This document shows, in pieces, positions 6,788 through 61,968 of a stretch of 64,000 bases of DNA (positions within the stretch are counted from its first letter, which is position 1; each line of letters opens with the position of its first letter). A model generated the notes under the pieces. The model was not told where the DNA came from, did no database searches, and saw only the letters and a list, made by a program, of their open reading frames with translations. Position numbers and translations under genes: made by a program. Origin of the DNA: Bacillota bacterium (GTDB lineage Bacteria; Bacillota; Clostridia; Ch29); contig JABVCK010000004.1 in the NCBI GenBank assembly GCA_013540605.1, positions 62,001 to 126,000 on the forward strand, read 5' to 3'.

Positions 6788-7947
6788 ACATTAGAGAAAT
6801 TGCAGAGAGTATCAAAGGCCAGGTGATAGACTGGAGAAGAGAGTTCCATGAGAATCCTGAGCTCACCTGGGAAGAGGTAAGGACAGGAAATAGGGTTGCG
6901 GAAGAACTGGAGAAGATGGGTATTGAGGTCAAAAGAATGGCCAAGACCGGAGTCCTGGGCATACTAAAAGGCGGAAAGCCCGGTAAAACCGTTGCCTTGA
7001 GGGCTGACATGGATGCCCTTCCGGTAACCGAAGCAAATGATGTGCCCTATAAATCCAAAAACGCCGGTATCATGCACGCCTGCGGCCATGACGGCCATGT
7101 TGCCATGCTTCTGGGCGCGGCAAAGATACTCAGCGGCATGAAGGACGACATCAAAGGGACGGTCAGGTTTATCTTCCAGCCCGCCGAAGAAATTGCGCAG
7201 GGAGCTATTAAGATGATTGAGGAAGGCGCAATGGACGGAGTGGGCGCTGTTTTGGGTATCCACCTCTGGTCCGGGCTTCCCAGCGGTAAAATATCCCTGG
7301 AACCGGGTCCCAGGATGGCTTCGACAGATATACTAAAGATTACCGTCAAGGGCAAGGGAGGGCACGGCTCAATGCCGCATCAGGGCATAGATGCTGCTGT
7401 CGCTGCCTCTGCTATTATAATGAACCTCCAGTCCATAGTGAGTAGAGAAGTAAGCCCCCTTGACCCTGCAGTGGTCACCATCGGGAAATTAAACGGAGGC
7501 TTCAGATGGAACGTATTATGCAGTGAGGTTACTCTGGAAGGTACAACCAGATGCTTCAACCCTGATTTAGTAAAAAGCTTTCCAACCATAATTGAAAGGA
7601 TAGCCAAGAATACCGCAGCTTCATACAGGGCCCAGGCTGAGGTCGAATACACGGTCGGTACTCCTCCGGTGATAAACGACCCTGCAATTTCAAAAATATG
7701 CTGCGGTGCAGTTGAAAAGCTCTATGGCAAAGATGCGGCCGTGGAGATGGAAAAGGTCATGGGAGGAGAGGACTTTGCCTTCCTCTGCGAAGCTGCCCCC
7801 GGAGTTATGGCCTTTGTCGGAACGGGCAACAGCGAGAAGGGCACCGATGTTGCCCACCACCATGAAAGGTTCAACATCGATGAAGATAGCCTTCCGGTCG
7901 GCACATCGCTGTATGCACAGTTTGCCGTTGATTTTCTATCACAATAG
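6784..7947 (+). CDS. M20 family amidohydrolase (N-acyl-amino acid / hippurate hydrolase type)
   Basis: 387-aa metal-dependent amidohydrolase of the M20D type. Signature MHACGHDGHVAMLLGAA (residues ~97-113), QPAEEIAQGA metal/catalytic Glu pair, and C-terminal MGGEDFAFL. These enzymes release amino acids from N-acyl conjugates. It overlaps the upstream carbamoylase gene by 4 bp, and with the transporter and PucR-type regulator forms a uptake-and-deacylation unit (inference). The gene ends directly at the edge of a long repeat element; no clear terminator was seen between them. Confidence 0.87.
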   Translation: MNIREIAESIKGQVIDWRREFHENPELTWEEVRTGNRVAEELEKMGIEVKRMAKTGVLGILKGGKPGKTVALRADMDALPVTEANDVPYKSKNAGIMHACGHDGHVAMLLGAAKILSGMKDDIKGTVRFIFQPAEEIAQGAIKMIEEGAMDGVGAVLGIHLWSGLPSGKISLEPGPRMASTDILKITVKGKGGHGSMPHQGIDAAVAASAIIMNLQSIVSREVSPLDPAVVTIGKLNGGFRWNVLCSEVTLEGTTRCFNPDLVKSFPTIIERIAKNTAASYRAQAEVEYTVGTPPVINDPAISKICCGAVEKLYGKDAAVEMEKVMGGEDFAFLCEAAPGVMAFVGTGNSEKGTDVAHHHERFNIDEDSLPVGTSLYAQFAVDFLSQ

Positions 7948-7964
7948 ACTAGGTGCTAGGTACT

Positions 7965-8213
7965 AGTTCGTAGTTGGTAGTTCGTAGTTCGTAGAATATA
8001 GATCGCAGGTACTAGTTCACAGATCACAGATCACAGTTCACAGATCACAGCTCACAGTTACCAGGGTAAGGCTTAAAGGTTTTCCCGTAGGCACTTCCCT
8101 GACATCTGTCATCTGTTATCTGACAACTGGTAACTGAATCTCTGACGTCTGTCATCTGACAACTGATAACTGGCAACTATACTCTGGCCACTGACCACTG
8201 GCCACTGCCAAAA
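7965..8213. repeat. Long intergenic repeat element, copy A
   Basis: About 250 bp built from degenerate short words. The left part repeats GATCACA/TTCACAG-like words, and the right part repeats complementary TGTCATCTG/AACTG-like words. A conserved centre (8062-8101) starts CAGGGTAAGGCTTA and ends GCACTTCCCTG, which are imperfectly inverted. The whole unit could fold as one long hairpin. A second copy at 63575-63805 shares several exact blocks, including TGTCATCTGTTATCTG and AACTGAATCTCTG. Not protein-coding. Confidence 0.75.
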
Positions 8214-8316
8214 GAAGTAACCGGGCAAAACTATGCAGAATAGTATGGAATCGGGGTAGTAGGAAATAGGAAATATCGCGTTTAATATCCGGTTTAATGG
8301 ATATATTATAATGTAA

Positions 8317-8414
8317 GGGGACACACCGCTGCTTTAGCGGAAAGGGGACACACCGCTGCTTTAGCGGAAAGGGGACACACCGCTGCTTTAGCGGAAAGGG
8401 GACACACCGCTGCT
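8317..8414. repeat. 27-bp tandem repeat, three copies plus a partial copy
   Basis: Unit GGGGACACACCGCTGCTTTA followed by GCGGAAA, with perfect copies at 8317-8343, 8344-8370 and 8371-8397, and a partial copy from 8398. Each unit contains an inverted CCGC...GCGG hairpin. It belongs to the GGGGAC hairpin family seen at several other places in the window. Confidence 0.9.
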
Positions 8415-8420
8415 CACGGG

Positions 8421-8500
8421 TATTCCTTGCCGCGGAATGTCCCCGATGTATTCCTTGCCGCGGAATGTCCCCGATGTATTCCTTGCCGCGGAATGTCCCC
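8421..8500. repeat. 28-bp tandem repeat, nearly three copies, upstream of hsp20
   Basis: Unit TATTCCTTGCCGCGGAATGT followed by CCCCGATG, at 8421-8448, 8449-8476 and 8477-8500 (the last lacks four bases). The unit holds the palindrome CCGCGG and ends in GTCCCC, the complement of the GGGGAC start of the adjacent 27-bp array, so the two arrays face each other in inverted orientation. Confidence 0.9.
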
Positions 8501-52501: not shown

Positions 52502-52738
52502 TCAAGCCTCTGCGCCGTTGACTCGCCGATAACCGTACCCTTTATTCTACCTTATGTATATATCTTAACACAGCAATAAGCTGTCTGTCATCTTATATAG
52601 TATGCTTACAATACTTTTCTATATTATGGGCAAAGATCAAAAAATATGCAATGATGTCAGCGAAATGGGACAAAGAACCGTCTTTGTCCCACCTTGTCCC
52701 ATGTCCCACTAAATGAATAAACGTGAAACATAAGCTTG
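52502..52738. other. Intergenic region with a GGGAC hairpin
   Basis: 237 bp. It contains the perfect stem-loop GGGACAAAGA-ACCG-TCTTTGTCCC (52667-52690), then more TTGTCCC/TGTCCC half copies. It belongs to the GGGGAC hairpin family. It marks the boundary between the SNF2 gene and the AT-rich peptide cluster. The rest shows nothing I recognise. Confidence 0.75.
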
Positions 52739-53764
52739 TTATATACTGTAAGTATCAAACATTTTATTAATTATTTCTACTGCGTTTGTAAAAGATCTGT
52801 GAATAGAAAGATTAGATGTTAAAATGACTCCATTAGCTCTTTTCTTTGCAAGATAATTAAGATCTACAATATCTGCCCTACTAGGGATACTCCTCGTAGT
52901 TAACGATTGCAAAACATCTGTTGCAATAATTACCTTCACTTGTTCTTTGCAACATAGTTCTGATATAAAATCAATCGTATCGGTTAAATGAATATAATCA
53001 GTAAGTAATCCTAAATCTCCTCTTCCGATTATTATTTCTGTACAACTCTTTAAGATAGAGGAAAGGCCTTTAACAGATTTGGGTGTCTCAATTTTAGGTA
53101 TCAAGTGAAAATCATAGATGTTATGTTCATTTATTTCTTTCTTTATTATTTGAACTTGTTGATGATTTTCAACTAAAGACAGACAAATATTTTTTATATT
53201 GTAATTTCTTATAAGTCCACAGATAGCATTAAACATGCTTTTATTTGAGTTTTCCTGATACGCATGTTGTGAAAAGATTACAGATCTAGGACCTCTTAAT
53301 TCAGATGAATTTAAGGCTCTTGCTGTTAAAGTATTATGATTGGTTTGAATGACAGTCAATAATAATTCCCCATCACCAATAATAATTGTACTATTATTTT
53401 TTATTGACGCTAGCGGCAAATTTGCATCAACAATAAAAGTATGTCGGTCATTTGTATCATACTCTGTTGTGAGTATTATTATATCGTTTTCTTTTATATA
53501 TTGCGCCTGCGTATGGTCTTGATAAATTCTATTTTTGTAGCAAGGATAAGGTATATCCAGCAATATATTAGGAATAGAATGTATGGCAGTATAATATGTT
53601 TCATATAGTTTACTAAAAAAATCATGATAATCATGGATATCATTATTAACCAAGTTAAATCTAATTCGATTAATATGTAGTGTTGCGTAATTTTTCACTA
53701 TTTCATAGCAATTATCAAAATTCTTAAAATACCTTAAGGTCGGTATAATTTCAACATTAGACAT
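52739..53764 (-). CDS. Pyruvate kinase-like protein without the C-terminal domain
   Basis: 341 aa, against about 470 or more for true pyruvate kinase. Pyruvate kinase features: RFNLVNNDIHDYHDFF (like the RLNFSHG region), a B-domain-like part with GDGELLLTVI and GPRSVIF, PKIETPKSVKGLSSIL (catalytic Lys and metal Glu), GRGDLG (metal Asp), and IATDVLQSL...SRADIVDL. The C-terminal regulatory domain is absent. It follows the radical SAM gene by 53 bp in an AT-rich cluster, so a special role, perhaps phosphoenolpyruvate- or pyruvate-based peptide modification, is possible (speculative). Confidence 0.78.
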   Translation of the reverse strand: MSNVEIIPTLRYFKNFDNCYEIVKNYATLHINRIRFNLVNNDIHDYHDFFSKLYETYYTAIHSIPNILLDIPYPCYKNRIYQDHTQAQYIKENDIIILTTEYDTNDRHTFIVDANLPLASIKNNSTIIIGDGELLLTVIQTNHNTLTARALNSSELRGPRSVIFSQHAYQENSNKSMFNAICGLIRNYNIKNICLSLVENHQQVQIIKKEINEHNIYDFHLIPKIETPKSVKGLSSILKSCTEIIIGRGDLGLLTDYIHLTDTIDFISELCCKEQVKVIIATDVLQSLTTRSIPSRADIVDLNYLAKKRANGVILTSNLSIHRSFTNAVEIINKMFDTYSI

Positions 53765-53817
53765 ATATTCCTTCCTTCCATTTCACATTATAAAGAATAA
53801 ACTCGGTGTTAAACTTC

Positions 53818-54863
53818 TTATGGTTTGAAAGAGAAGCATAAGGGTACAATATTCTCATTTTGAATATATTTCATTCGATGTGTACATGGTGTATCAATAT
53901 TCAATTTATGATCATATGCCTCATTTGTAAAACCTTCCTCCCATTTAATTTCATTATTATGGTATTTAGCTATACAGTACTGAGAACCAATCATAGCTGA
54001 ACAGATTTGTATTAGTCCATCAGGGTGTACCAAAACTCTTTCTCCCAGCTTAACTGGACAAAATCCATAGTAAGACTTGTTACTGTTAAAAGTATCCAGG
54101 TCAACAAATTGGAGAGGTATTCTAATTTCCATTTTATATTGAACACGATCTAATTCTGCTCTAATTTGCTGCAAAATATTTTCCCAGTCATTATACTCAA
54201 TTAATACGGATTCGGTCCAAGCATCCATAGGTATTCCATGTTTTAATAAGACATGGAAATTTAAGCTCTTGACACCAAGGTTTTCACAATATTTCATCAT
54301 ATCAACTATATTATACTTTTCCCTGTGTTTAACATAAAAATTGTGTACGCATGAAGTAATAGATACATAAAACCCGGCTTTTAATGCTGCGATAATATTC
54401 CTTATTGTAACGTCAAATGATCCATGAGATCTTAGATAATCATTTGTTTCTTGATTATATCCATCCAGACTAAAATTCAATTTGCATAATTCTTTTAATT
54501 TTTCGTAACTAAGTAATATCTCATCAAAGAAACCGTTAGTATCTATCCTAATTTCTGTATAACCAATATTATGAAGCTCCTCAACTAACGTCAACAGATA
54601 CCTATAGTCTGATTGATAATATAGTGTAGGCTCTCCACCGAGTAAGGTTATTTTCCGGGCTCCTAGGTAGTAGAAATCTTGTGAGAGTTTAATGGCCTCA
54701 TTCAAATCAATCTCCTGTCTCTTCGTTTTAAATGTTAGGTTTGTTTTATAATAGCAATGCTTACATCTTAACTGACAATTGTTCGTAATATATAAAAATA
54801 CTTGTTTTAACCTATTGTAAAAAAACTTATAAATCTGTCATCAATTATATAGTTATATTTCAA
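53818..54863 (-). CDS. Radical SAM enzyme with a -1 frameshift near its start
   Basis: About 348 aa if the shift is made. The CxxxCxxC motif CQLRCKHCYY is at 54751-54780, upstream of the first normal start in that frame (TTG at 54705). That frame is open only from a stop near 54840 and has no good start. The preceding frame starts at TTG 54863 with GGGAGG 8 bp away and runs into T7 (54819-54825); slipping -1 there joins MKYNYIIDDRFISFF to YNRLKQVFLYITNN and the motif. GGEPTL follows, and later Cys (FCPVKLG, ICSAMIGSQYC) suggest a SPASM/Twitch-like auxiliary cluster. It probably modifies a peptide; it lies in a PqqD/ABC cluster. Confidence 0.82.
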
Positions 54864-54966
54864 TATATTTACCTCCCTTAACCCGGACAAAGTAAAACAA
54901 CTGTATCCTTGCTGCATACTTTAATTTTCCTTGTTTTAAACTTTGATACTTAATAGTAAAATCCTG

Positions 54967-55053
54967 CTATAAAATTCCACAAAATTCAGATAAATATCGA
55001 CAAAGCTGAGGTTCAGCTATATCCAGGTACTTATCCTGGTAGTATTCGGACAT
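54967..55053 (-). CDS. Possible small protein of 28 residues
   Basis: Short frame MSEYYQDKYLDIAEPQLCRY plus SEFC-containing end, two Cys. It lies between the CYTH terminator and the radical SAM gene, where a precursor peptide could lie. The ribosome site is poor (AGGA about 17 bp away), and it could be a remnant of another gene. Low confidence. Confidence 0.2.
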   Translation of the reverse strand: MSEYYQDKYLDIAEPQLCRYLSEFCGIL

Positions 55054-55133
55054 AATAATAATGTGGTTATCCTAACAAATGTGCCAAAAATTCTTGACAC
55101 TACCATTAATATTTCAGACTCATGCAAAAGGCA

Positions 55134-55162
55134 GAAAAAAACATACTCGGTTTTGTCCGAGT
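55134..55162 (-). terminator. Terminator after the CYTH gene
   Basis: Minus-strand ACTCGG-ACAAAA-CCGAGT, then ATG and TTTTTTT. It divides the peptide cluster into two transcripts, unless read through. Confidence 0.8.
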
Positions 55163-55184
55163 AAAGCGAGAAAACTTCAAGATA

Positions 55185-55808
55185 TTATTGTTTATCTTTT
55201 TCATATCGTATAATCTCAATAAATCTTTTATATTTACTCTTATTATTGATCTTCCATCTAATGCCTATAGAATAAAGTTCTTCCATCAAACCCTTTAAAT
55301 GTTCAGGACGAATTCCCTCGATTTCTAATTCATATGTTACTAGCCCATTTGGAAATGTTGTTTTATCGAGTTCAAATATATATCCATAAATACCTTGTAA
55401 ATAATGCCTGCTATTTTGAATACTACCCAATAAAATCAATTCGTCATTTTCTTCACAAAAAGTATTGAAAATATTATAGGCTTCACTAGAAAGAAAATCC
55501 AATATTTTTTTTGGTTTATATAGAATTTGCATAAAGTCATTTTCATTTATCATAACATTATATTCAGCAGATTTATTAACCAAATCGTTGTAAGTATTTT
55601 CCTTTACTTTCATGCACAGTAGATATGATGTACACTCCTTTCGAATTCGCAGTGTAACATTGTATTTTTCCAAAGTATAATAAGAACTATCAAAATAATA
55701 ATTTATTTGTTCAACTGGATCTCTAATGGAGGAAAAGTCATTTCTGATTTTTTCATAATATTGACTTTCAATTAATAACTTTAGCTCATTCTCCTTGATA
55801 GCTTCCAT
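55185..55808 (-). CDS. CYTH-domain protein
   Basis: 207 aa. CYTH/triphosphate-tunnel features: N-terminal ENELKLLI (ExExK-like), TLRIRKECTSYLLCMKVKEN, and ELEIEG later. The family binds inorganic or organic triphosphates (thiamine triphosphatase, class IV adenylate cyclase). ATG at 55808 with GGAGG 8 bp upstream. It is 29 bp after the ABC permease gene in the same direction. A role in a peptide cluster is unexpected and unknown. Confidence 0.72.
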   Translation of the reverse strand: MEAIKENELKLLIESQYYEKIRNDFSSIRDPVEQINYYFDSSYYTLEKYNVTLRIRKECTSYLLCMKVKENTYNDLVNKSAEYNVMINENDFMQILYKPKKILDFLSSEAYNIFNTFCEENDELILLGSIQNSRHYLQGIYGYIFELDKTTFPNGLVTYELEIEGIRPEHLKGLMEELYSIGIRWKINNKSKYKRFIEIIRYEKDKQ

Positions 55809-55837
55809 CTTAAAATCCTCCAATTGTTTTCTTCAAT

Positions 55838-56647
55838 TTAGTAAAAAACAAAGTTTCCATTCTTACGAGCATTTTTCTCAGCCTTTTTTAGTAACCACAA
55901 TGTTAGGGATACTATAAGCAATAGGCTTATTAACAATTTGTAGATACCTTGTAAACTTGCTGATAAGCTACCTTCTATTAATAGTGGACGAACAATCATT
56001 AAAGCATAGGTCAAAGGGAACAACGCAGAGATAATTTTAGCCCAAATAGGAAATACAAATGTTGGCATTCTTACTCCAGAAAATAAAATCATTGGTTCAT
56101 CAAAAACTGCCATTAAGAAGCTGGCATCACGCGAGAAGAGAAAAATAACATTCATTAACCCTCCCCATACCGCTGCAGAGACTATCAAGACTATGAAGGA
56201 AATAGGTATATAAATTAAACTCTCTACCGGAATCCTACGTATCCATACAGTTACAAATACACAAAAAACCGAAAACATCCAAATGTTTTCAATTAATGCT
56301 CCAAACGCCCGACCATATATTATTGCAATTCGATTAGCAGGGGTTAAAAAAATAGTTTCCAGAGTGCCGTTGATTCTTTCATGTCCCATATAGAAAGCAC
56401 TCTGAAGTAAAGACTTGAATGATATATATCCTAAGAATCCGGTTATCAAAAACATTATGATATCTTCTTGTGAAGCAAAAGTATTCCAAGGACCCTGAGA
56501 TAGATTAAATGGTTTGTAACTATAATAAGCGTTAAAGAATACTACTATTGGCCAAATTAACAAAGTAAAATATACCCCATAAGAATGAAACGAATTACGA
56601 TGTTGCTTTATAACTTCTGCTCTCACAATTTGAAATATTTCTTTCAA
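55838..56647 (-). CDS. ABC transporter permease (ABC-2 type), second
   Basis: 269 aa, six hydrophobic segments. ABC-2 features: GHERINGTLETIFLTPANRI region and MRMPTF-like exit (SGVRMPTFVFPIWAKIISAL). The start is taken at TTG 56647, 6 bp after GGAGGGG; the ATG at 56662 lies inside that site. It overlaps the ATPase gene by 53 bp, so the two are tightly coupled. Confidence 0.82.
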   Translation of the reverse strand: MKEIFQIVRAEVIKQHRNSFHSYGVYFTLLIWPIVVFFNAYYSYKPFNLSQGPWNTFASQEDIIMFLITGFLGYISFKSLLQSAFYMGHERINGTLETIFLTPANRIAIIYGRAFGALIENIWMFSVFCVFVTVWIRRIPVESLIYIPISFIVLIVSAAVWGGLMNVIFLFSRDASFLMAVFDEPMILFSGVRMPTFVFPIWAKIISALFPLTYALMIVRPLLIEGSLSASLQGIYKLLISLLLIVSLTLWLLKKAEKNARKNGNFVFY

Positions 56648-57632
56648 TACTATCCCCTCCATACGATAATTGAATAAGTGCATCTTCTAAACGCGGTTCG
56701 ATTATTTTAAGGTGCAGAATAGGTAGTCCGTTACTAGTTAAAATATGTGCAAGTTGTCCAGTAAGATTTTCTTGAGCACTTATACTAACAGAAACATCAG
56801 TAGTATTTTCTTGAAATTCAATTTTAGCTTGATGGACTTTCGCTATTTCATATATCTCCTTTTTTACACCACTTGTTAGTTCAGGTATTGATACTAAAAT
56901 ATTAGTATTCATTTTCGTGGAATAGGCTAGCTCACTTGGAGTTCCGGTTGCAATAATACAGCCTTTATCTATTACATATATCCAATCACAAAGCTCTTCT
57001 GCTTCTGTTATATAATGTGTTGTTAATAGTATTCCTTTATTCCTTTTTTCAGCCAAATGACGCACATGATTCCTTAATTCTTTTGCAATGGCTACATCTA
57101 AACCCAGCGTTGGTTCATCAAGAAATAAAAATTTTGGATCGTTTACAAGTCCACGCGCTATCTGCAGACGTTGCTTCATACCCTTTGAATAACGCTCTAC
57201 TGGCATATCGGCTGCTTCCTTTAAATCGACTAATTCCAGTAACTCATCAATAGAATCGTTTAATTTGTGTCTAGGCAAATTATAAAGGGAAGCGAAATAC
57301 TCCAGGTTTTCCCGTGCCGTCAAACGCCAATATATATTACGTTCTCCGCCGGTAATAACATTGACAATCCTCTTAATTTCCTGAGGATAGCGTATGCCGT
57401 CAATACCATTAATCGAAAATGAACCGGATGTCGGTTCCAAGAGAGCAGACAACATTTTTATTGTTGTCGTTTTCCCGGCACCATTTATACCAAGAAGTCC
57501 TATGATTTGACCAGGTTTTATTTCTAAGCTAACATCATTAACAGCCATAATTTCTTTCAATGTCTTTGGTCCAAACAAACCTTTTCGCTCTTTAAGCTGG
57601 TAAACTTTACATAAATTATTTGCGATTAGCAT
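56595..57632 (-). CDS. ABC transporter ATP-binding protein
   Basis: 345 aa. Walker A GINGAGKTTTIKML, Q-loop region, signature YSKGMKQRLQIARGL, Walker B FLFLDEPTLGLD, and H-loop THYITEAEELCD. Residues after ~240 form an extension found in drug/peptide-type ABC-2 exporters. ATG at 57632 with AAGGGGGG. With two permeases it probably exports the product of the cluster and may confer immunity (inference). Confidence 0.93.
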   Translation of the reverse strand: MLIANNLCKVYQLKERKGLFGPKTLKEIMAVNDVSLEIKPGQIIGLLGINGAGKTTTIKMLSALLEPTSGSFSINGIDGIRYPQEIKRIVNVITGGERNIYWRLTARENLEYFASLYNLPRHKLNDSIDELLELVDLKEAADMPVERYSKGMKQRLQIARGLVNDPKFLFLDEPTLGLDVAIAKELRNHVRHLAEKRNKGILLTTHYITEAEELCDWIYVIDKGCIIATGTPSELAYSTKMNTNILVSIPELTSGVKKEIYEIAKVHQAKIEFQENTTDVSVSISAQENLTGQLAHILTSNGLPILHLKIIEPRLEDALIQLSYGGDSIERNISNCESRSYKATS

Positions 57633-57645
57633 AATACAGCCCCCC

Positions 57646-58455
57646 TTATCCGAAAGTTTTCTCAATCAATTGTTTCTCTACCCTAGAAAGCCACCAAAAG
57701 CCGAACAATAAGTACATTAAGCTTAAAGCTACTAACTTTATTATTAGGATCCAGTGGTGCCAAAGTAAGTCTCCAAAAATAACTACTTTGCGAAATAGTT
57801 CCAGTACATGAGTTAGCGGCAATACATGTGAAATTACTTGTAACCATGTAGGTAAATACTGAATTGGATAAGATATTCCACAGACAAGACTTACTATTAT
57901 AAATAAAGTATTCTGCGTTATATAAGTATCGCGAGTTCGCAACATAACTGTAGCAAGTGAAACCCCCATTGAAAAAAAGCTGAAAATAGAGAGAATTAAT
58001 ACAATTATTAGTTGCTCAATTTTGATATTCAGCAACTTAGCTCCCAATAACCATCCTACTATTAACACAACAAAGAATTCTAGAAAAGACCGTCCTACTT
58101 GTTCAATTAAATTGCCAAGAAAATACCCTTTCCTCGAACAGGGAGACAATAATAATGCTTCTAAAGTTCCTTCTCTTAACTCATTCATTAAAGAACGTCC
58201 AACATTCATTAAAGTAGATACTGCAAATGTGTAAAGAGACACTCCAAGAATAGTATAGGTTATATAATCAGAACTTCCAGTATAAGTTTCAAATCGGCTA
58301 TCCAAATATCCTCTAAACATATAATGATAAATAAAATATGAAAACAAAACTGTATATAATCCTATAACAATCCTTTGAACTATAAAGGACCATGGGAAAA
58401 CACGTTTTGCAATGTAATAGTTACGTTTTGCAGTTGCTAGCATTGTAGTTAGCAT
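57646..58455 (-). CDS. ABC transporter permease (ABC-2 type), first
   Basis: 269 aa, six hydrophobic segments; ELREGTLEALLLSPCSRKGY is the typical ABC-2 motif, followed by ISYPIQYLPTWLQVISHVLP. AAAGGAGG lies before the ATG at 58455. It overlaps the CPBP gene by 35 bp and precedes the ATPase gene by 13 bp. Confidence 0.85.
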   Translation of the reverse strand: MLTTMLATAKRNYYIAKRVFPWSFIVQRIVIGLYTVLFSYFIYHYMFRGYLDSRFETYTGSSDYITYTILGVSLYTFAVSTLMNVGRSLMNELREGTLEALLLSPCSRKGYFLGNLIEQVGRSFLEFFVVLIVGWLLGAKLLNIKIEQLIIVLILSIFSFFSMGVSLATVMLRTRDTYITQNTLFIIVSLVCGISYPIQYLPTWLQVISHVLPLTHVLELFRKVVIFGDLLWHHWILIIKLVALSLMYLLFGFWWLSRVEKQLIEKTFG

Positions 58456-59182
58456 GCTGATTTTCCTCCTTTACCCTCTTACTCATCCGAAATCTAGCAA
58501 AAGATGTATAAGCAATTGGAATATTATAAGTAAGATGTATCAAGATTGGTATTAGCACGGAGCCACTATACACAAAAAGAAGTCCTGCGCTGAGGCTGAG
58601 CATAAACTGTTTGAAAAAGTCACGCGGACGGAATCTCTGTTGTGCTGCAAAATGTAATATATGTTCCGCTACGAATAAAAACGCTGAAATTAAAAGCGCT
58701 GGAGCTACTCCGATTAGCGGTAATAAAGATAAAATCACAAAAGCTTTGTAGAATAACTCTTGTAATATTGCAGAAGCAATATTACTATATGCGTCTAAAG
58801 ATGCACTCCGTAAAGTAATAGTAGGAAATAAAGTCATTAGTTCTTGATTATAGAAAGGACGAAGTTCTTTAATAAGCGGAATCAAAAAACATATACTTAC
58901 AATAATGGCAAATAATAATGATATTGGCATATGCTTAGTAACAGGAACATCTGGAGTGAATAGCAAAAATGCTAATAAATATGGAATAAAATAAACAGTT
59001 CTGCGTAACCAATCAGCACCGTTAAATAATTTATCATGGATTTTTCTCGCTTTTCTGATGACTAATAATTCAAGATGTACAATCAAGAATAACACTATAG
59101 TCCCTTTAGATGGAAAAAATATAGCAAGTGAAATAATTATAAACTCCATTAAGGTAAAAACTATCCATTGCTGTTTACTCAT
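58421..59182 (-). CDS. CPBP-like membrane protein with altered catalytic motif
   Basis: 253 aa, about seven hydrophobic segments. The CPBP layout is present, but motif 1 reads LQELFYKAF where active enzymes have EExxxR; motif 2 FLFVAEHILHF and motif 3 LIHLTYNI remain. It may be inactive or act differently. CPBP proteins in peptide clusters can serve in maturation or self-protection. ATG at 59182 behind GAGGTG; it starts 5 bp after the PqqD-like stop. The frame is open to 59212. Confidence 0.75.
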   Translation of the reverse strand: MSKQQWIVFTLMEFIIISLAIFFPSKGTIVLFLIVHLELLVIRKARKIHDKLFNGADWLRRTVYFIPYLLAFLLFTPDVPVTKHMPISLLFAIIVSICFLIPLIKELRPFYNQELMTLFPTITLRSASLDAYSNIASAILQELFYKAFVILSLLPLIGVAPALLISAFLFVAEHILHFAAQQRFRPRDFFKQFMLSLSAGLLFVYSGSVLIPILIHLTYNIPIAYTSFARFRMSKRVKEENQHANYNASNCKT

Positions 59183-59186
59183 TTCG

Positions 59187-59438
59187 TTACACCTCGACAA
59201 GTTCGTTTTCAAGCAATTCTTTCATAAATTGTTGAATATCTTTTAATACCATTGCTTTATCAACATTGTATTTTTCTGCTATTTTATCAGCTATTTGCTC
59301 TATTGATGTTTTACCATCAATGGAATCCCAAACCAATTCGCCTACTTCATCAAGTTGAAATGCTTTATAGTTTTTAGCTATATATTTTATGCCATTAACA
59401 ACACGGTATTGTACAAATACATCGCGTCTCGGTATCAT
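59187..59438 (-). CDS. PqqD-like peptide-binding protein
   Basis: 83 aa, winged-helix RiPP recognition element. YRVVNGIKYIAKNYKAFQLD, then GELVWDSIDGKTSIEQIADK and a last helix with LLENELVEV match the PqqD family. PqqD-type proteins bind a precursor peptide and bring it to a radical SAM enzyme. GAAGGAG lies before the ATG at 59438. This gene is the best single sign that the cluster makes a modified peptide. Confidence 0.85.
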   Translation of the reverse strand: MIPRRDVFVQYRVVNGIKYIAKNYKAFQLDEVGELVWDSIDGKTSIEQIADKIAEKYNVDKAMVLKDIQQFMKELLENELVEV

Positions 59439-59506
59439 AAAATCAACTCCTTCACTAAAATATGGTATAATTAAATATATCTTTGCCTTTAAGGATATAG
59501 ATTCAA

Positions 59507-59702
59507 TTGTGTCTTCTCTACACAATTTGTTTACGAAATAAGTTAAATCCTGAAGAATATGCAACCTTTAGAAATTAGTGATATTTGCTGTTATGCATTA
59601 TCCATTGCAGCAGGAAGCTTAACAACGATTAATTTAGGAGCTTTATACACGAACCCCACCCCCTTTATAACAAATTTATTTTTTAGGGTAGAGAAGACAC
59701 AA
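59507..59702. repeat. 15-bp inverted repeats around the small peptide frame
   Basis: TTGTGTCTTCTCTAC (59507-59521) and its exact complement GTAGAGAAGACACAA (59688-59702), separated by 166 bp. The 19-residue frame is between them. They could be paired protein sites or the stem of a large RNA loop. The left copy also continues as TTGTGT...ACACAA, a small palindrome. Confidence 0.8.
59591..59650 (-). CDS. Candidate small peptide (possible precursor)
   Basis: GTG start at 59650 with a strong AAAGGGGGTGGGG upstream; 19 residues: MYKAPKLIVVKLPAAMDNA, then TAA. It lies 150 bp before the PqqD-like gene and inside 15-bp inverted repeats. A short Lys/Pro peptide could be a modified product or signal, but it is very short for a leader plus core, so it may instead be a leader peptide. 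Unproven. Confidence 0.4.
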   Translation of the reverse strand: MYKAPKLIVVKLPAAMDNA

Positions 59703-59712
59703 ACATTAATGG

Positions 59713-60540
59713 TCAACTTACCTGCTTTTTCTTGAGAATAGTCTGTACTTGAACATTAAGATCTTGACAAAACCACAGAGCCTCTTTGGTATATCGTTCC
59801 ACCGTTGTTTCATCAAACGGACGGGTTTGGAAATCTAGATACTTACTAAGTAGAATTTTATCGCCTGTTTTCTCCTGATAACGAATTATCTTACGATATA
59901 GCCACTTGGAACTCGGATTTGTCTCCCCATAAGCAGCTAAATAAGATGTCACCATTGTATCTATCAGCATTCGTGCCATGAAGAAAGCTGAACCTAGGTC
60001 TTTGGAAAGTAATGCGCCTTGTACGTCCTCAACCATACCTGCGTAAAACTCTGATTTGATAACAATCTGATAGAAACCTAGGTTATTGAATTGAATAGAT
60101 TTATAAATTTCTTCAAACTTTTCTTTGTTTATTACCGGTCTACCAAATTTTAAACGATGTAAAAAATCAAATTCAGTTTCAGATAGGCGTTGGATATAAT
60201 GCTCCGTCTTAAAATCTAACCCATTCAGTTTAGCTATCATTTGATTAAATTCATTCCAACTCCAATATTCAAAATCATATCGAATTCCATCGTGTCTAAT
60301 GTTACGTACAATAGCTTGTTGAGTTGATAAGATTAATTCCTCGGAAGAAGGGTCTCCTCGAAACCGGTCAGTACTAATATCCTTACAAATTACATATACA
60401 TCAATATCGGAAGTTTCGTTTCCAAACCCCTCCATTAGCGATCCCGCTATGTAGACTAGTGAGGTATCTAGATCTATTCCTTTCAAATGTTGCAAAATAA
60501 GATGTGGATGATTTTCAATATTTCGTTTATCAAGCACCAT
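59713..60540 (-). CDS. Nucleotidyltransferase-domain protein
   Basis: 275 aa. Pol-beta-type nucleotidyltransferase motif: AGSLMEGFGNETSDIDVYVI (residues ~32-51; GS...SDID metal ligands). The rest is helical. ATG at 60540 (MVLDKRN) with AAAGGAGAGG upstream; the frame is open to 60561, overlapping the GGDEF-RHH stop. Relatives are aminoglycoside and minimal nucleotidyltransferases; the substrate is unknown. Its place just before the small peptide suggests it belongs to the cluster. Confidence 0.75.
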   Translation of the reverse strand: MVLDKRNIENHPHLILQHLKGIDLDTSLVYIAGSLMEGFGNETSDIDVYVICKDISTDRFRGDPSSEELILSTQQAIVRNIRHDGIRYDFEYWSWNEFNQMIAKLNGLDFKTEHYIQRLSETEFDFLHRLKFGRPVINKEKFEEIYKSIQFNNLGFYQIVIKSEFYAGMVEDVQGALLSKDLGSAFFMARMLIDTMVTSYLAAYGETNPSSKWLYRKIIRYQEKTGDKILLSKYLDFQTRPFDETTVERYTKEALWFCQDLNVQVQTILKKKQVS

Positions 60541-60557
60541 CAATAATCCCTCTCCTT

Positions 60558-61121
60558 TCACACGTTATATTTTTTTAAAAACAATTCCAAGCTCTCTCTT
60601 AATATTTCTGCTTCACTCTTACTGAGATATCTAGCCAAACTACGTAATCTTTCCAACTGACTTGGACTATAGTAGTTGGAACGTAAAACCATTTTCTCTT
60701 CTGCGATACAAGCTCTATTGCGTCCACATCGCTTTGCTTTATTCAGTACTTCTTCAGCCTTACGCCACAATTCAGCTGCATCACGCCCGTCCCATGGATA
60801 TTGAGCTATCCCTGCGCTACAAGTTAATCCGTCTGTTTTAAAAAATCCAGCAAACTTCTTCAAAAGTTCATCAGTAAAATCTTTAGCTTGCTTCTTATTT
60901 ATCCCAGGCATGATTAAAAGAAATTCATCCCGTTCCGCCCAAAACAGTTGAACTTTATTGCTGTTAATTTGCTCATTCAAAAACTCCCTAACTTCATGTG
61001 CTAATCGAGTTTTATCTTCTTGAGAATAAGTATTGAAACGGTCAAGATCGAAAAATACTATTGAAAATAAATCATTTTCATGAGTCGCTATGAAATATTC
61101 TAAGTTATCAAAAGCATTCAT
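60558..61121 (-). CDS. Degenerate GGDEF domain fused to a ribbon-helix-helix-like end
   Basis: 187 aa. Residues ~1-140 have the GGDEF fold (VFFDLDRFNTYSQEDKTRLA, SAGIAQYPWDGRDAAELWRK, ALNKAKRCGRN-like), but the signature is AERDEF, so cyclase activity is doubtful. Residues ~148-187 (SPSQLERLRSLARYLSKSEA, then ILRESLELFLKKYNV) look like an RHH DNA-binding unit. A 44-bp perfect palindrome lies 37 bp upstream, the likely operator. It could be a nucleotide-sensing repressor of the cluster (inference). First gene of the AT-rich group. Confidence 0.68.
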   Translation of the reverse strand: MNAFDNLEYFIATHENDLFSIVFFDLDRFNTYSQEDKTRLAHEVREFLNEQINSNKVQLFWAERDEFLLIMPGINKKQAKDFTDELLKKFAGFFKTDGLTCSAGIAQYPWDGRDAAELWRKAEEVLNKAKRCGRNRACIAEEKMVLRSNYYSPSQLERLRSLARYLSKSEAEILRESLELFLKKYNV

Positions 61122-61157
61122 TAGCTACATTCCTTTCATGTATGGATTATATAATAA

Positions 61158-61201
61158 TACACCGATGTATATATATGTTAACATATATATACATCGGTGT
61201 A
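61158..61201. promoter_or_regulatory. 44-bp perfect palindrome upstream of the GGDEF-RHH gene
   Basis: Arms of 22 bp (61158-61179 and 61180-61201), each reading TACACCGATGTATATATATG and TT, meeting without a spacer. Likely operator for the RHH end of the adjacent protein. Confidence 0.8.
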
Positions 61202-61290
61202 AATACATTTTATGGATTTATATATAAAATTTACCCCAACTTAATATAATGATACCTCCAATAAAGAATAACATTAAAAAGACTGCCCTG

Positions 61291-61968
61291 TCAGCAGTCC
61301 CCCTGTGAATCGTCATCAGAACTGTAAGTTCTGTTGTTCTCATTAACCCGTTCCATTTTGGAGATAGATACTTCATAGGCAATCTTATTGAGTACAGTTC
61401 CGTTCACCAGTCTTTTTTGATACTCCCTGCTCTGAATCCTGCCCCATATTTTAATTCTGTCTCCCACCCTGAGTTTTTCTGAAAACCTGGCATTTCTCCC
61501 CCACGCTATACAAGGTATGTAATCGGATTTTCCATAAGACCTGTTAACAGCTAAAAGCAAGTCTGTAATCTCTCTGCCAAAGGGTGTTGTCCTATATAGG
61601 GGGTCCTTGCATATATAACCATCCAAAAAAATCTGGTTTGGGTTCTTTATTTCTTCAGGATTTTTTAAAATGTTCATATCCCGGGTAAACACTGTAAGAA
61701 CCAATCTATTATTCCCGTCGATATACTTGTTGTACGAGCGCAGCTGTCCTTCTATCTGTATTGTGCCGTCAATATGCTCCAAGTCAATCCCGAAAATCAA
61801 TCTTTCTGAAATGGTTATCGGTAAAACATCCTTATAATCGCTTAACCTTGGAACAACAAGGTTGAACGAGTAAAACCCCTCTCCGTAAATCTTGTGGCTA
61901 AACTCAAGACCACCATGATACCTTCCAACAACCGTTACGGTATTGGTATTCACCGCCTTTTCTGTCAT
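61291..61968 (-). CDS. Single-stranded DNA-binding-like protein with two OB folds
   Basis: 225 aa. Two SSB-type halves: residues ~8-105 (NTNTVTVVGRYHGGLEFSHK) and ~112-215 (NQIFLDGYICKDPLYRTTPF, then IPCIAWGRNARF and GDRIKIWGRIQSREY). The second half is a good SSB OB fold. The end is acidic (SSDDDSQGDC), like SSB tails, though not the usual DIPF. ATG at 61968; another ATG 21 bp earlier also has a ribosome site. Its specific role next to a Mur ligase is unclear. Confidence 0.8.
   Translation of the reverse strand: MTEKAVNTNTVTVVGRYHGGLEFSHKIYGEGFYSFNLVVPRLSDYKDVLPITISERLIFGIDLEHIDGTIQIEGQLRSYNKYIDGNNRLVLTVFTRDMNILKNPEEIKNPNQIFLDGYICKDPLYRTTPFGREITDLLLAVNRSYGKSDYIPCIAWGRNARFSEKLRVGDRIKIWGRIQSREYQKRLVNGTVLNKIAYEVSISKMERVNENNRTYSSDDDSQGDC

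Follow-up and report, generated by a model that had tools for sequence, protein, structure and literature searches.

A radical SAM gene divided between two reading frames

Why should the gene for a radical SAM enzyme be divided between two reading frames at a run of seven T residues, and is this run a device for setting the amount of enzyme or the mark of a gene that has been broken? We asked this question of a locus on the minus strand of a 64-kb stretch of DNA (hereafter, the window), the features of which are listed in Table 1.

Table 1. Features of the radical SAM locus and its surroundings, in window coordinates.
Feature	Position	Strand	Basis
Shine-Dalgarno-like sequence, AAGGGAGGT	54879-54871	minus	sequence; 8-nt spacer to TTG 54863
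ORF1, 18 sense codons from TTG, N-terminal piece, LKYNYIIDDRFISFFTIG and stop	54807-54863	minus	read directly
T7 run, phase AGT TTT TTT (U_UUU_UUU), heptamer codons at 54827-54819	54819-54825	minus	sequence
28-nt overlap of the two open frames	54810-54837	minus	bounded by TGA 54840-54838 and TAA 54809-54807
ORF2, 339 codons, CQLRCKHC and the remaining radical SAM protein	53818-54837	minus	open frame; Pfam PF04055
Pyruvate-kinase-barrel-like protein, 341 aa, downstream gene	52739-53764	minus	Pfam PF00224
CYTH-domain protein, upstream partner gene	55185-55823	minus	Pfam PF01928
ABC-2 permease	55838-56683	minus	profile match
ABC ATPase	56595-57665	minus	profile match
ABC-2 permease	57646-58455	minus	profile match
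CPBP (Rce1-like) membrane protease	58421-59212	minus	profile match
PqqD-like RiPP recognition element protein	59187-59564	minus	Pfam PF05402
Candidate 19-aa RiPP precursor, VYKAPKLIVVKLPAAMDNA, GTG start	59591-59650	minus	putative, from sequence and ribosome site GGGGGTGG
Spacer separating the CYTH and radical SAM genes, with mobile-element relics (~320 bp)	54864-55184	minus	
32-bp IS256-type end	55073-55104		full IS copy in L023
19-nt inverted arms	54873-54891 and 55152-55170		pair

As an earlier note on this DNA had claimed, the frame that contains the cysteine motif CQLRCKHC (ORF2) lacks a good start codon. This frame opens just after a TGA at 54840-54838 and ends at a TAA at 53820-53818, and its first ATG, GTG or TTG is a TTG at 54705, which lies 44 codons in and beyond the CxxxCxxC motif, whose first Cys codon is at 54777. 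Among the window's ORFs of at least 110 codons, a start-less lead of comparable length was found only in ORF2 and in a tandem-repeat artefact at 8298. Direct reading likewise bore out the claim that the upstream ribosome site serves the TTG at 54863, whose frame (frame 0, ORF1) ends after 18 codons at a TAA at 54809-54807. A second upstream start in frame 0, an ATG at 54917, is located within mobile-element-like sequence.

As the TGA closes the radical SAM frame on one side and the TAA closes frame 0 on the other, the change of frame must fall inside 54837-54810. A -1 step anywhere within this zone unites both frames into a 348-residue protein that matches the Pfam Radical_SAM profile PF04055 (1.1e-21; 78.1 bits, cut-off 29.5). 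A7 or T7 runs occur at 39 positions in the window, which gives a chance of ~1.3% that one falls in the 28-nt zone; the presence of the T7 is by itself weak evidence, as indels also favour such runs.

The 295-codon ORF that begins at TTG 54705 was considered as the true gene and rejected, as it is without CxxxCxxC. The locus should be annotated as one frameshifted radical SAM gene and not as a gene of 295 codons from 54705 that is without the catalytic cysteines.

An unbroken relative of the divided gene

The sole near relative that we found, L028, is encoded in the Eubacteriales MAG S32M_St_metabat_46 (JAUNNI010000021.1). It was recovered by a second genome scan, in which the alignment used as query included distant actinobacterial proteins. 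No relative came from scanning GTDB contigs with the single sequence or from two scans of viral contigs, and no further close relative was present among up to ~1,200 genomes from the neighbourhoods of the window's taxon and of L028's genome, in a set with one genome per species. Plasmid and phage records yielded only radical SAM proteins of ~25-29% identity, mainly actinobacterial among the best matches, whose operons are unrelated and include nucleotidyltransferase and glutamyl-tRNA ligase genes. Loci L018, L019 and L021 represent an actinobacterial plasmid operon with a nucleotidyltransferase gene, two radical SAM genes and a glutamate-tRNA ligase gene, and an FAD monooxygenase is additionally found in L018 and L021.

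The L028 gene is unbroken, being a single frame of 366 codons with an ATG start. Its product is 44% identical to the joined window protein over residues 5-348 (344 residues), in an alignment that spans the junction, as one would expect if joining the frames restores a normal radical SAM N-terminus, as previously claimed. The N-terminus of L028, MYYDIDEKFRNHFKGLKQVFLY, pairs with both ORF1 (YIIDDRFISFF, aligned to YDIDEKFRNHF of L028) and ORF2 (LKQVFLY). When the ORF1 stretch was compared with this N-terminus in a shuffle test, 0.8% of shuffles did as well as frame 0, and 80% and 95% did as well as the other two frames. As the L028 N-terminus matches both halves, we conclude that one gene has been split into ORF1 and ORF2; as only frame 0 resembles it, ORF1 is the ancestral N-terminus and it is the window's frame that is broken.

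The earlier note had also called for a comparison of T-run length in relatives, and had named an intact relative lacking the run as evidence against its proposal. At the equivalent site L028 has T4 where the window has T7 (CATTTTAAA), and it reads CAT TTT AAA with no shift needed. At this site L028 is therefore a relative of that kind, although its identity is no more than 44% and an in-frame T7 follows ~18 nt further downstream. This downstream run does no harm to the frame in which it sits, and it shows such runs to be ordinary in these AT-rich genes. The exact position of the indel is not fixed by this comparison, as L028 also differs in length there.

Enzyme family and predicted fold

By its CQLRCKHC motif (CxxxCxxC) and its PF04055 score above the cut-off, the joined protein is, as judged from sequence, a member of the radical SAM superfamily. 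In the alignment, the full set of SPASM auxiliary-cluster cysteines, including CxxC(x)5CxGGC, was absent from both the window protein and L028, and all NCBIfam matches listed were below cut-off (moaA, 72.9 vs 284 bits; viperin_w_prok, 48.4 vs 180 bits). The protein belongs to a rare family in which the SPASM cysteines are not all present, and an intact enzyme would be predicted to cleave SAM.

The AlphaFold model of L028 (pLDDT 82, pTM 0.84), in which the window protein enters only as an alignment row, has a predicted TIM-barrel radical SAM fold. With this model, Foldseek returned matches that include SuiB, SkfB, CteB, BlsE, viperin and MoaA, with a best TM-score of ~0.5-0.6 by query length and 13-21% identity among the matches listed. 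The region of the model that corresponds to ORF1 is a short helix (7-12) ahead of the first barrel strand (18-24). As the helix comes from the ORF1 region and the first barrel strand from ORF2, neither piece alone would be predicted to make the fold. ORF2 keeps the catalytic and family residues that are common to L028.

These results bear on whether ORF2 could be translated from a non-canonical or internal start of its own, with no shift. The frame is open from 54837 and ATT codons are present ahead of the cysteines. However, the first conventional start is the one at 54705, where the product would be without the cluster-binding cysteines. Any start inside ORF2 would omit the helix with which the ancestral protein began, and the L028 N-terminus has its counterpart in ORF1. 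We regard such a start as extremely improbable.

Cause of the frame break

As a relative carries the same gene unbroken, an ordinary indel or a base-call error is a better explanation of the break than a programmed frameshift. We consider the likeliest cause, with about an even chance of being correct, to be a recent indel that left the sequenced strain without a functional radical SAM gene. Under this explanation, an indel of one base (or the equivalent modulo three) within 54837-54810 would have put the gene out of frame, most plausibly because the polymerase slipped in the T7. Ribosomes starting at TTG 54863 would then halt after 18 codons, and no usable start in ORF2 would retain both the first barrel strand and the cluster loop of CxxxCxxC, so an active enzyme would not be expected. 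If the break is present in the cell, the strain is probably without the mature product of the operon.

The setting of the gene favours a recent disturbance, as the spacer upstream holds mobile-element relics and the overlap between the CYTH and radical SAM genes has been lost. The right inverted arm in this spacer includes part of the radical SAM ribosome site. No other copy of the arms was found in the genome, so a second mobile element cannot be named, and the arms may have arisen by chance. No Rfam family matched in the region. At ~1017-1080 of L023 (genome contig C34), the frame of an IS256-type transposase is likewise interrupted, apparently by a difference of one base. Elsewhere in the window, a perfect tandem array of 27 nt x 3.7 lies next to another of 28 nt x 2.9 (positions 8315-8500).

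Counting against a real indel, ORF2 is otherwise undamaged over 339 codons, with no second sign of decay, the remaining operon genes are intact, and a base-call error would give an identical picture. A sequencing or assembly error in the homopolymer, in which case the real gene would be unbroken and its enzyme produced as usual, is a less probable but still substantial alternative. The same preservation of ORF2 and of all neighbouring operon genes is in its favour, and T7 runs are classic error sites. In one published survey (PMC3711429), frame breaks that were validated by BLASTp but occurred as singletons were assigned to indels or sequencing errors, and most were expected to be sequencing errors. 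Against an error here, each of the 59 ABC ATPase domains encoded in this genome is read in an open frame that no stop interrupts, and 40 other A/T runs of at least 7 bases lie within intact ORFs in the 120 kb examined. From these two observations, we conclude that errors are infrequent here and that frame breaks are not a general fault of the assembly. Codon usage was also tried as an indicator of frame breaks, but the test was insensitive in the AT-rich island and was dropped.

The indel and the sequencing error are thus the two of the four causes offered in the earlier note that stay in place; its programmed frameshift found no support. Were the ribosome programmed to step back by one base at U_UUU_UUU (or RNA polymerase to slip there), a controlled amount of enzyme would be made. 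Formally, the run fits the X_XXY_YYZ heptamer pattern, is correctly phased and falls where the frames overlap, and the joined product is a normal enzyme. However, the site is not conserved in L028, the only near homologue, which needs no shift, and the same survey demands conservation before recoding is called (PMC3711429). Moreover, the 25 nt upstream of the run contain no Shine-Dalgarno-like sequence, the RNA downstream is no more stably folded than shuffled sequences (z +0.8 and +0.9), and the 18-residue product made before the stop has no evident use. The heptamer is also weak, as U_UUU_UUU was a poor bacterial slip site in published tests: in E. coli it is far less shift-prone than A_AAA_AAG (PMC5009743). 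In a survey of heptamers, the gain over background was at most ~tenfold without stimulators and reached over a thousandfold with a strong stimulator (PMC4066793). We therefore consider programmed frameshifting very unlikely.

Phase variation, in which the length of the T tract would vary in the population and switch the enzyme on and off, fares only slightly better and is in our judgement unlikely. A tract of 7 is the shortest length used in PMC3711429, and it is placed early in an otherwise intact gene, at its 5' end and ahead of the codons for the active-site residues. Against this, the tract is short, L028 has no such tract at the site, and among the ~1,200 genomes the gene is in no related species except the one behind L028. 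A limited literature search found no radical SAM example of such a T-run switch. That the T7 is a deliberate switch of either kind, controlling the radical SAM dose of a RiPP-type operon by phase variation or by frameshifting, is, overall, doubtful.

The operon and its RiPP-like gene set

The broken gene lies in an operon (~52.7-61.9 kb) with a GC content of 28-38%, compared with 43-48% in its surroundings. This low GC content suggests that the AT-rich island (52700-61900) was horizontally gained. A RiPP-type gene set co-occurs in the operon, namely an RRE (PqqD), an exporter, a protease and a modification enzyme, and we infer from it a RiPP function. The 19-codon ORF of the candidate precursor, which has a strong ribosome site, sits between nucleotidyltransferase-like and PqqD genes, and its YxxPxL motif is one that we take to resemble the leader motif of lasso peptide precursors. 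The downstream pyruvate-kinase-barrel-like protein scores far below the NCBIfam pyruvate kinase cut-offs.

A CYTH gene is found upstream of the radical SAM gene in both the window and L028 (at 7408-7995 in the latter), although BLAST shows no similarity between the two CYTH proteins. We found no literature on a radical SAM protein paired with a CYTH domain, and for CYTH alone only incidental phage work. In our view, the wider operon, with its CYTH, radical SAM, PqqD, CPBP and pyruvate-kinase-like genes and its short precursor candidate, is of more interest than the break itself.

Comparison with known systems

The window protein and L028 share a C-terminus without SPASM that ends in VPLCFSFKP, and at both loci the CYTH gene is directly upstream of the radical SAM gene. 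The loci differ in that the radical SAM start overlaps the CYTH stop in L028, and in that the PqqD, CPBP and ABC genes of the window operon were not detected in the 17-kb L028 locus. The actinobacterial homologues, unlike the window protein, contain the central SPASM Cys stretch. With the RiPP maturases SuiB, SkfB and CteB, and with BlsE, viperin and MoaA, the protein would have its general fold in common, and the PqqD-type gene in the operon adds to the likeness to the RiPP maturases. It differs from all of these proteins in its low identity and in sequence scores that are far under the NCBIfam cut-offs.

The genes known to use programmed -1 frameshifting, such as dnaX and the IS3 and IS1 transposases, have an X_XXY_YYZ heptamer in common with the window gene. 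Unlike them, the window gene combines a poor heptamer with an absence of stimulators and of conservation. The indel/error class of GeneTack (PMC3711429), in contrast, likewise consists of isolated, homologue-validated and non-conserved breaks, and the break described here shows no notable difference from it.
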